Source: Candidatus Solibacter usitatus (GTDB lineage Bacteria; Acidobacteriota; Terriglobia; Bryobacterales; Bryobacteraceae). From it: a DNA stretch of 57,363 nucleotides. The position numbers and the translations under genes were made by a program. Shown here piece by piece: positions 36,321 to 37,956 of the stretch. The notes under the pieces are model-generated. The model did not search any database. It was not told the DNA's origin and worked only from the letters and a program-made list of their open reading frames with translations. The stretch covers positions 1 to 57,363 of the forward strand of contig JACPVQ010000238.1 of the NCBI GenBank assembly GCA_016191645.1, read 5' to 3'. The stretch's first letter is position 1. Each line of letters opens with the position of its first letter.

Positions 36321-36575
36321 CTATTGACACAAACAGGAACAGGTGCCGTTTGGACTATAAATGGTCTTGCAGTGCTTGCGAAAAGGCCAAGCTCCACTGC
36401 AATGTTGCCCTTCCGACGCCGCGCAATATGTTCCGCCCACTGGGCAGTTCGTGTCGATGCCTGGGGGCACCGTCATCGGAACGCAAGCCGCGGGCGTCGA
36501 CCAGGCAATCCCGAACAGCGCCACGATAACGATGGCGAAAACAAAGAGGGCCAGTTTCACTTTGGTTTTCTTCAT
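36321..36575 (-). CDS. small secreted Cys-rich protein
   Basis: This 84-residue protein starts MKKTKVKLALFVFAIVIVALF, a clear signal or anchor segment. The remaining 55 residues carry eight cysteines, ending in CSCLCQ at the C-terminus, and are rich in G, P and S. No family was recognised. Even cysteine number and export suggest disulfide bonding. A TATAAT at 36593-36598 lies 17 bp upstream, so it probably has its own promoter just behind the terminator of the micro-ORF transcript. Confidence 0.6.
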   Translation of the reverse strand: MKKTKVKLALFVFAIVIVALFGIAWSTPAACVPMTVPPGIDTNCPVGGTYCAASEGQHCSGAWPFRKHCKTIYSPNGTCSCLCQ

Positions 36576-36592
36576 ACAGGAATCCGGCACCG

Positions 36593-36598
36593 ATTATA
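36593..36598 (-). promoter_or_regulatory. candidate -10 box (TATAAT)
   Basis: A consensus TATAAT on the minus strand is followed by about 17 bp to the ATG of the Cys-rich protein. The -35 region (GTGTTT) is poor. Confidence 0.45.
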
Positions 36599-36622
36599 CA
36601 TCCGCGCACGCTGGAAAACACG

Positions 36623-36666
36623 AAACCCCTGCTGAGCGCCTTCGCAGGACGTCTCAGCAGGGGTTT
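36623..36666 (-). terminator. strong terminator hairpin, perfect 14-bp stem
   Basis: The inverted repeat aaacccctgctgag / ctcagcaggggttt pairs perfectly, with a 16-nt loop. On the minus strand it is followed by cgtgttttcc, so termination is plausible in that direction. It closes the small transcript that begins near 36856. Confidence 0.7.
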
Positions 36667-36779
36667 CTAGCCGTTTTGGGAGATGGCCAGCGGCCTATCA
36701 ACCCTTGCACAGCGGTAGCCGGTCCACAGGAACGTAGGCTTCGTCACTGGACGAAACCAGCTACTTTAGAACAGGCGAC

Positions 36780-36827
36780 TCAACAGTCGGCCACCTCGTG
36801 CGTGTATAGTCTACTACCAGTAATCAT
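36780..36827 (-). CDS. 15-residue micropeptide ORF with extended Shine-Dalgarno
   Basis: The ORF reads MITGSRLYTHEVADC and a stop. It is preceded, with 6 bases between, by AGAAAGGAGGTGGTCC, which matches the complement of the 16S 3' tail at every position if one G:U pair is allowed. Pairing continues into the next bases (AGTC). Part of the ORF itself, GAGGTGGCC in the HEVA codons, repeats the leader. The peptide may matter, or its translation may only control the RNA. No homologue was recognised by eye. Confidence 0.55.
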   Translation of the reverse strand: MITGSRLYTHEVADC

Positions 36828-36862
36828 TAGACTGGACCACCTCCTTTCTCAGTGATAATTTC

Positions 36863-36891
36863 ATACTATTCAGGAAGTGGAAACCTGTCAA
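36863..36891 (-). promoter_or_regulatory. sigma70-type promoter of the micro-ORF transcript
   Basis: The minus strand has TTGACA (36886-36891), a 17-bp spacer and TAGTAT (36863-36868). This is the best promoter match in the window. The expected start is near 36856. Confidence 0.8.
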
Positions 36892-36939
36892 CGAAAAAAG
36901 TAGTCGCGCTACAACATTTTGTAGCCCCAGTGTTTGCGG

Positions 36940-37956
36940 CTACAGTTTTCGGCTTAGAAACCGGCACATCGCCAGCCCGTCCATCCAATTGAACGGGAAC
37001 CGGCCGGTTGTGTAGTGCGCGCAGGGCAGCGTGAACACCTCGTGGGGATAATTGCGCGTCTGGAAGCTCTCGATCACCTGCTTGGAGAACTCCGGAAGGA
37101 AGGTCGTGTCATATTTCGCCCACACCAGAAGCGCGGGCATCTTGCGGCCTTCCAAATGGCCTAAAAACGTAGCCGGGCTGATCAGCGCCCAAAGCCGCCG
37201 AAGCTCTTCCTGCGATACCTGGCTTTCCAGCCCCTTGCGCACGTGCTGCGTGGATAGGCCCGTCCACACGACGTCGCTGAAATACATCGACACGTGATTG
37301 AAAACGCCGCAGCGGATGCGCGCATCGTGCGCCGCGGTGATGAACGCCATGCAGGACCCAAGACTTGTCCCCAGAATCGCCAGCCGTTCATACCCCTGCT
37401 GCTGCAGCCAAGTCAGGCACGACCGGATATCGACAATGGTCTGCCGCGCCGCATGGATGGTCCGCCCGATGTTGCTGGAAACGTGGTAATCGGCGCGTTG
37501 CAGCTCCGGAGGCATGCGCCGGTCGTGGTAGGCCATGCTCATGCGCAAAGCCGTGATGCCGAATTTATTCAATAACTTACAGAGTCCAACGTGCCCCCCG
37601 GCATCGGAATTCCATTGCGGCAGCACCACCACGGCACGGCCTTTGTCATTCTTCGCTCGATAGAACCCGCCGTGAACCGTATTGTTCTCGGTATATGGCG
37701 AATGAATCGGGCTCGTGAAGGTCAGATGCTCGCCTTCCAATCGATAATCCGAAGGCGTTTCCGCCGAGTAGAAATCCGCCGACTTCGCAATCGCCTGCTC
37801 CACAAACCGGGACATGGCGGCCCTCGTGTCGCCGTTATACGATCTGTCCAGCAGCCAATCGTCCCCCCATTCAAATGGACGCACCTTGCGATTGGTGTCC
37901 TTGGTGGCTAGGTCGTATTCCCAACGATCGATGAACTTTGCGTAATAACCGAACAT
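36940..37956 (-). CDS. alpha/beta hydrolase (ABHD18 or dienelactone-hydrolase-like)
   Basis: This 338-residue cytoplasmic protein has an alpha/beta hydrolase core with AVVVLPQWNSDAGGHVGLCKLLNKFGITALRMSMAYHDRR. The nucleophile elbow ILGTSLGS carries S198. Late acid and histidine regions are ALLVWAKYDTTFLPEF and TLPCAHYTTGRFPF. The N-terminal 90 residues contain a FTSPIHSPYTENNTVHGGFYRA segment typical of hydrolases with an N-terminal beta extension. The gene lies 45 bp downstream of an intrinsic terminator on the same strand, so attenuation is possible. Confidence 0.8.
   Translation of the reverse strand: MFGYYAKFIDRWEYDLATKDTNRKVRPFEWGDDWLLDRSYNGDTRAAMSRFVEQAIAKSADFYSAETPSDYRLEGEHLTFTSPIHSPYTENNTVHGGFYRAKNDKGRAVVVLPQWNSDAGGHVGLCKLLNKFGITALRMSMAYHDRRMPPELQRADYHVSSNIGRTIHAARQTIVDIRSCLTWLQQQGYERLAILGTSLGSCMAFITAAHDARIRCGVFNHVSMYFSDVVWTGLSTQHVRKGLESQVSQEELRRLWALISPATFLGHLEGRKMPALLVWAKYDTTFLPEFSKQVIESFQTRNYPHEVFTLPCAHYTTGRFPFNWMDGLAMCRFLSRKL

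Follow-up and report, generated by a model that had tools for sequence, protein, structure and literature searches.

A small gene of Candidatus Solibacter usitatus that joins an anti-16S leader to a conserved short reading frame may be an acidobacterial form of the Ms_IGR-5 RNA

Introduction

The window considered here is a 57,363-nt stretch of DNA from Candidatus Solibacter usitatus (contig JACPVQ010000238.1), the minus strand of which carries, at positions 36614-36891, a complete small gene consisting of a promoter, a leader, a short ORF, a structured segment and a terminator stem (Table 1). The leader is complementary to nearly the whole 3' tail of the 16S rRNA, which raises the question of whether such a gene acts through its RNA, through the peptide that it encodes or through the act of being translated. 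The initial annotation had regarded it as a self-contained small transcript that could be an extreme-efficiency micropeptide mRNA, a ribosome-binding or ribosome-sequestering RNA, or both. The anatomy of the locus, its homologues within the order and beyond, and its relation to described RNA families are presented below.

Table 1. Features of the small gene, in window coordinates
Feature	Position	Strand	Basis or remark
-35 box TTGACA	36886..36891	-	sequence and promoter scan
-10 box TAGTAT	36863..36868	-	17-nt spacer from TTGACA; sequence and promoter scan
Predicted transcript	36614..36857	-	5' end set at the conserved block TATCACTG, 3' end at the T-rich tail; both ends putative
5' CACTGA	36849..36854	-	may pair with the conserved hairpin loop TCAGTG as a pseudoknot
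Leader AGAAAGGAGGTGGTCCAGTC	36830..36849	-	anti-16S; 20 nt pair with the 3' end
ORF MITGSRLYTHEVADC, 15 codons, ATG to TGA	36780..36827	-	sequence; frame kept in homologues
Internal Shine-Dalgarno-like GAGGTG (Glu-Val codons)	36792..36797	-	stop 9 nt beyond; invariant in 53/53 loci
P0 helix, 5' strand CGCACGAGGTGGCC (ORF end)	36789..36802	-	85.0% of cells paired; two-sided changes in 4/14 pairs
Hairpin GACT..AGTC	36777..36788	-	stop codon in or near the loop; 76.8% of cells paired
Hairpin P2, CAGTG loop	36737..36758	-	86.7% of cells paired; two-sided changes in 4/7 pairs
P0 helix, 3' strand GGCTACCGCTGTGC	36707..36720	-	covariation with ORF end; comparable 3' element role in other phyla
Terminator stem-loop	36622..36667	-	perfect 15-bp stem 36667-36653 / 36636-36622, then GTGTTTT

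Results

Organisation of the locus and its anti-16S leader

The promoter recognised in the initial annotation is present as described and is the single sigma-70-like site in 36400-37100, a region in which shuffled sequences average 0.2 such sites. The terminator stem is likewise perfect, although one base pair longer than the 14 bp formerly assigned to it, and is not among the stem-loops listed by a consensus terminator scan with a threshold of 5 T in 8. An 89-codon ORF on the same strand (36321-36590) begins just past the terminator; its product resembles a small exported protein in being hydrophobic at the N-terminus and rich in cysteines.

The leader pairs with the 16S 3' end GCGGCTGGATCACCTCCTTTCT over 20 contiguous nucleotides, two of them as G:U pairs, which bears out the pairing of about 20 nt with two G:U proposed before. 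The 16S tail used was that of the congeners G011 and G007, the two of 12 genomes of the genus that match the tail pattern, and the window's own assembly contains no match to this pattern. The next-best anti-16S stretch in the window is 14 nt long, which is also the maximum over 10 shuffled windows. The leader of the window RNA opens with TATCACTGAGAAAGGAGGTGGTCCAGTC, and its ATG follows 12 nt after GGAGG. Among the related loci described below, 14-21 contiguous nucleotides of the leader pair with the congeners' 16S tail and 11-17 nt separate GGAGG from the start codon, while the leader is also retained in loci of other phyla.

Conservation within the order

A nucleotide search with a 286-bp segment gives matches in 37/61 genomes including the window's own, distributed as 35/37 in the window's family (f1), 2/2 in f2, 0/18 in f3 and 0/4 in the other families of the class. 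The related set contains 30 loci, 29 of f1 and one of f2 (L028); L033 is the one locus added to the first 29 for leader pairing. The covariance model R1 was built on 28 of the loci (27 of f1 and L028), without L008 and L011; L011, the locus of which lacks the leader, was excluded from the alignment and from all counts, while L008, truncated at the edge of its contig, is absent from the alignment A1. R1 finds the gene in 79/81 genomes of the order, the exceptions being G928 and G047, with one match per genome save for an extra weak partial match in G022, and it recovers 17 of the 18 f3 genomes that the nucleotide search misses. The loci L116 and L136 (Bryobacterales) carry the same type of gene as the window. 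Upstream of the gene, TTGACA with at most one mismatch and a spaced NAnnnT occur in 30/30 of the related loci, which come from f1 and its sister family f2 (2/30 when shuffled), and a perfect stem of at least 8 bp followed by a T-run occurs in 19/29 of these loci (0/29 when shuffled), L008 being too short for inclusion. In the covariance search for homologues that the initial annotation had called for, two of the refuting outcomes named there, absence from related genomes or homologues devoid of leader and hairpins, were not observed.

Distribution beyond the order

When 396 genomes of the phylum were searched with R1, 63 gave matches with E<=0.01. Twenty-seven hits from outside the family were made into loci, 23 of which contain the leader and the Glu-Val codons followed after 9 nt by a stop; the remaining four (L053, L056, L058 and L060) lack the leader and were dropped, and 33 weaker hits for which no locus was made stand outside the counts.

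A motif scan of the genome collection gave at least 119 stretches, which were reduced to 116 distinct loci (hereafter motif loci). Among the 80 matches listed of these at least 119, the titles name 62 Actinomycetota, 9 Acidobacteriota, 2 Zixibacteria and 3 recorded only as 'bacterium', together with one each from Sumerlaeota, Deltaproteobacteria, Nitrospinae and Nitrospirae. The strict motif occurs in 33/297 genomes of Acidobacteriota (2 with the reversed-motif control), in 72/296 of the phylum of a Streptomyces (control 0), in 29/80 of the phylum of a Zixibacterium (control 0) and in 1/148 of the phylum of the deltaproteobacterial seed, the single match being the seed itself (control 1). The distribution of the strict motif across phyla is patchy, and these figures are undercounts, since G035, a clear R1 hit, fails the motif. 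Each of the seven seed genomes contains one match, and all matching genomes in the strict-motif surveys hold a single copy except G684, which has two copies with differing ORF sequences.

R1, although trained on the order only, reaches E<=0.1 in 40/43 loci chosen by the motif, a result that is supportive and partly circular rather than independent, as the motif itself includes the leader. The TTGACA-type promoter is found in 16/115 motif loci (2 when shuffled) and the perfect stem with T-run in 29/115 (1/115 when shuffled), counts so low that neither element can be called general across phyla. A phage origin was considered and rejected, as the two matches in the viral collection are devoid of the rest of the anatomy when their context is inspected by eye. 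These homologues, within the order and outside it, support the initial view that the gene is self-contained, with its anti-16S leader and a small ORF that is conserved, and its relation to Ms_IGR-5, described further below, is an addition to that view.

Reading frame, stop codon and codon constraint

The ORF of 15 codons reported initially is present, as is the repeat of the leader within it, which reads GAGGTGGCC. All ORFs in the 29 leader-bearing related loci are 13-19 codons long and end in Glu-Val-(Ala/Val)-Asp-X-stop, while the N-terminal part of the peptide drifts in both sequence and length, so that the peptides comprise 11-20 residues over all sets. The two codons GAG GTG are free of any synonymous or wobble change in 53/53 loci (30 related loci and 23 found by R1), all of which were obtained through similarity or through R1 and none through the motif; since R1 was trained on the invariant GAGGTG and the loci within each set are akin, these counts are not independent trials. 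A fixed wobble position next to a drifting N-terminus points to a constraint on nucleotides rather than on residues, and pairing in the helix P0 (see below) could alone account for the invariance of GAGGTG. Judged as an ordinary Shine-Dalgarno-led protein gene, the locus falls outside the type on three counts, namely a 20-nt contact with the 16S tail, a fixed Glu-Val wobble and drifting N-terminal residues.

The frame is nonetheless kept. In the frame ending at the fixed stop, a stop codon precedes GAGGTG in 1 of the 116 motif loci, where shuffling predicts 53, while the other two frames contain stops in 82 and 78 of them. The 30 related loci show the same tendency, with a stop in 5 loci in the ORF frame and in 29 and 27 loci in the other two (17.6 expected), and as the ORFs are open from their ATG, these five in-frame stops lie upstream of the start. 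Conservation of the frame together with the stop thus suggests that translation itself matters.

The identity of the stop at this fixed place varies, being TGA in 21, TAA in 6 and TAG in 3 of the related loci, and TAG in 81, TGA in 23 and TAA in 12 of the motif loci. TAG is over-used in the motif loci L073-L191, terminating 72/102 of their ORFs vs 112/416 long ORFs from the same loci, the latter being a rough ORF set. The first canonical start in the motif loci is ATG in 51, TTG in 46 and GTG in 13, and the other six contain near-cognate starts only (CTG 3, ATC 2, ACG 1). By eye, the actinobacterial copies in G500, G627 and G681 carry nothing but near-cognate codons (ACG, ATT or CTG) where the start usually lies, with the frame kept, which recalls the start codons policed by IF3. 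In five loci of family f24 (L036, L040, L041, L042 and L045), each ORF contains two Glu-Val (GAGGTG) segments, as in MSYHSSSEVSYRTREVAAT, as if the Shine-Dalgarno-like segment had been duplicated.

RNA folding and covariation

The predicted fold of the window RNA has an energy well below that of shuffled sequences (z -5.0) and contains the 9-bp hairpin that had been noted, whereas the second hairpin of 7-8 bp was not identified as such; comparison suggests that its bases belong instead to a long-range helix (P0), where they form the 3' strand opposite the ORF end. A structure drawn by hand, with P0, P2, the stop-codon hairpin and a small helix P3, was scored on the alignment, and 84.9% of its cells pair, as against 81.8% in shuffles and 30-44% in slid versions. 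The covariation score is 0.228 vs 0.184 in shuffles (reached by 0/500) and at most 0.102 in slid versions, while two-sided changes affect 11 pairs vs 4.6 in shuffles and 5-11 in slid versions, so that this last count is weak by itself.

In the motif loci, a 3' element AAT.CC..CAG.CACC[CG] lies within 150 nt of the stop in 73/116 cases. Its pairing with the ORF end of the same locus amounts to 5.19 of 6 positions, which 0/2000 permutations reach, as against 4.38 when partners are swapped; examples are GGTGTCCGTC with GACGGACACC (L076) and GGTGGTTGTC with GGCAACCACC (L090). An unrestricted search for pairing between the ORF end and the 3' region gives 23.2 for own partners vs 20.8 for swapped ones in the motif set, while in the 30 related loci own partners (25.0) do no better than swapped ones (25.3). 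In the window's family the strand matching the 3' element reads like GGCCGCCTC, and AAT.CC is not recognisable in it by eye.

Two further interactions were considered and set aside. The pseudoknot between the 5' end and the hairpin loop is weak, as 94.6% of its cells pair in nearly invariant sequence and 8/500 shuffles reach its score, although two compensatory cells (L026 and L027) are visible by eye. A two-partner switch, in which the leader would pair with the 3' element as an alternative, looks good by eye in some loci (e.g. L074) and does not exceed swapped partners in either locus set.

Relation to described RNA families

At gathering cut-offs, Rfam models find only two tRNAs in the window, and the sub-threshold candidates rnk_pseudo (E 0.62) and mir-725 (E 0.18) are far under their cut-offs, match the terminator hairpin and were rejected. 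The family most similar to the window's kin is Ms_IGR-5 (RF02471), the consensus of which contains the leader ACACAAGGAAGGAGGUGGUCC, then GUGAGGUGgCug and AAUuCC..cAGuCACCC. Its model (cut-off 45 bits) gives no match in the window at the gathering threshold and none up to E 5 in 36500-37000, nor any listed match in the four scanned loci of the window's family, and none above the cut-off in 99 Acidobacteriota genomes, six of which give matches at E<=0.05. Out of 17 homologous loci searched, one (L051) passes with 50.6 bits (E 1.9e-8), and L039 (43.3 bits) and L037 (39.3 bits) stay below the cut-off, all three matching over the full model. The cut-off is exceeded in 9 of 18 motif loci.

The window copy being under the RF02471 cut-off, its link to Ms_IGR-5 rests on intermediates: R1 reaches the f24 and f54 loci of Acidobacteriota, to which L051 belongs. 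The window and the motif loci are also alike in their anti-16S leader, GAGGTG ORF end and stop 9 nt further on, features by which the motif loci had been chosen. Judging from these sequence matches, the window gene most probably belongs with the Ms_IGR-5 group as a branch outside the reach of the Rfam model. Rfam types Ms_IGR-5 as an Actinobacteria sRNA gene, and neither its family line nor the literature passages retrieved mention an ORF. In the RF02471 structure the partner of the leader is the run of codons just beyond GAGGUG, whereas P0 pairs the ORF end with the 3' element, and the pairing found here implies that the Rfam structure may need revision.

In a passage of PMC4974804, the MS_IGR-5 homologues of two mycobacteria are reported to carry ribosome footprints, and Ms_IGR-5 transcripts are reported in Streptomyces in the literature passages retrieved, the homologue of Streptomyces lividans TK24 being SLIV_16488. 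In those passages of the open-licence PMC literature, neither an ORF nor a function is named for Ms_IGR-5, and no earlier description of the anatomy appears there, including those from PMC8079986, PMC8780764, PMC10454040, PMC4117421, PMC9094748 and PMC4633059.

A second family, the Caulobacter sRNA CC2171 (RF01867), has a consensus that starts with cAAcaAucGAAAGGAGGUGAUCCAGUGUCUCAUuGuCaUcaaC, i.e. the same anti-16S leader followed by GUG, and the alphaproteobacterial consensus continues from the leader as GUG-UCU-CAU. The ORF end and the 3' element are not seen in it. The model reaches E 0.00077 against L044 in a search of 151 bases, while its scores, 13 bits in the window and 13-25 overall with the leader as the clearest match, are under the cut-off of 75 bits, and 60 Acidobacteriota genomes give none above the cut-off and six at E<=0.1. 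As a lead only, CC2171 may represent a further branch, the ORF of which has gone unnoticed.

Discussion

On the anatomy, conservation, reading frame, wobble constraint and covariation described above, a course of ribosome docking, holding and switching may be proposed. The preferred reading, put forward tentatively and as somewhat less than an even prospect, is that the gene makes an mRNA-like regulatory RNA, the Acidobacteriota form of Ms_IGR-5, to which ribosomes are recruited through their 16S tail; they would translate it and be held at its stop, and the RNA would be refolded in the process. A 30S subunit would dock on the leader, almost all of its 16S 3' tail being paired, and the docked ribosome would translate 11-20 codons up to the fixed stop. 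Because the stop lies 9 nt past GAGGTG, a terminating ribosome would carry this segment at start-site spacing: with the stop in the A site and the last sense codon in the P site, 6 nt would separate GAGGTG from the P-site codon, and 6 nt is the usual spacing at start sites. The terminating or post-termination ribosome may then be gripped again by the same 16S tail, cover the ORF strand, keep P0 open and free the 3' element, which immediately precedes the terminator. The RNA would accordingly exist in two states, ribosome-held and closed, and could serve as a sensor or a trap of ribosome supply that reports or consumes ribosomes, the signal being translation and not the peptide.

Elements of this arrangement are known from other systems. 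In the RF2 gene (prfB), a Shine-Dalgarno-like element a few nucleotides before a stop acts on the ribosome at the frameshift site with a spacing of 3, whereas the spacing to the P-site codon is 6 nt here and no frameshift product is proposed. In translation-dependent leader peptides and attenuators, translation of a short ORF alters the folding of the downstream RNA. The short ORF, hairpins and terminator of the window gene give it an attenuator-like anatomy, yet it has its own terminator, the stem of which is built without the P0 strands, and no gene further downstream was found to be under its control in cis. Inspected by eye, 7/11 related loci (5/5 congeners) share one upstream gene and the other four have a different one, while 14 loci from other phyla have other neighbours. 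The earlier statement that the neighbours do not explain the gene therefore holds, and with neighbours differing across relatives, the reading as an attenuator or leader of a downstream gene is highly improbable and was set aside.

Three other readings were weighed. A ribosome-sequestering RNA, in which 30S subunits are titrated or blocked when the leader binds their 16S tail and the ORF merely accompanies the second anti-16S site, would agree with a 20-nt pairing unique in the window, a leader kept across phyla and the 16S complementarity of GAGGTG; it is unlikely, as the frame is kept beyond such a need, with an in-frame stop in a single motif locus, and the RNA from one gene would need to be about as abundant as the free subunits. 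The retention of frame and stop, and of Glu-Val near the C-terminus in all 53 loci, would instead be natural for a micropeptide gene with a product of 11-20 residues ending in Glu-Val and three further residues, a reading made doubtful in turn by the absence of wobble change in these very codons, the drift of the N-terminal part and the often weak start codons, so that only a small chance is given to it. A micropeptide mRNA of extreme efficiency, as first suggested, is not well supported either, given the start 11-17 nt after GGAGG, the weak starts elsewhere and the drift of the peptide. According to the reasoning of the initial annotation, conserved pairing with a drifting peptide would indicate an RNA role, and such a role is indeed favoured, although translation itself seems to count as well, the frame and stop being kept. 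The 3' element could also act in trans, as an antisense sRNA whose CACC by the terminator binds the Shine-Dalgarno sites of target mRNAs once translation of the ORF opens P0. The occurrence of AATCC..CAG.CACC in 73/116 motif loci, paired to the ORF end, and the placing of Ms_IGR-5 among sRNA genes by Rfam agree with this; the role of the element as partner in P0 nevertheless suffices to explain its conservation, and the antisense reading is rather improbable.

If the preferred reading, that of a translated RNA held at its stop, is extended to all homologues, it is conceivable, though more doubtful than likely, that they form a cross-phylum class of ribosome-sensing RNAs in which the 16S tail is read twice, once for loading and once for parking at the stop, the parked ribosome setting fold and activity and translation rather than the peptide being the signal. 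At least two Rfam families (Ms_IGR-5 and perhaps CC2171) would then be branches of this class, which the excess of UAG stops (81/116 motif loci) and the weak starts could tune to the state of release factors or initiation factors.

The gene of the initial annotation is thus real and not unique to the window's genome. What is new, as measured against the open-licence literature searched, is the conserved frame, the second anti-16S site placed relative to the stop and the range across phyla, the actinobacterial form appearing so far, in the sources retrieved, as an uncharacterised sRNA only. By its anatomy the RNA is linked with the ribosome both where translation starts and where it ends, and a 'non-coding' RNA proves to have a conserved reading frame. 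The gene seems to be old and widespread, occurring mostly in single copy in Acidobacteriota and Actinomycetota and in some further groups, and to work through being translated, and its presence in 79/81 genomes of the order together with its sharing with Actinomycetota and other phyla makes some basic role likely.
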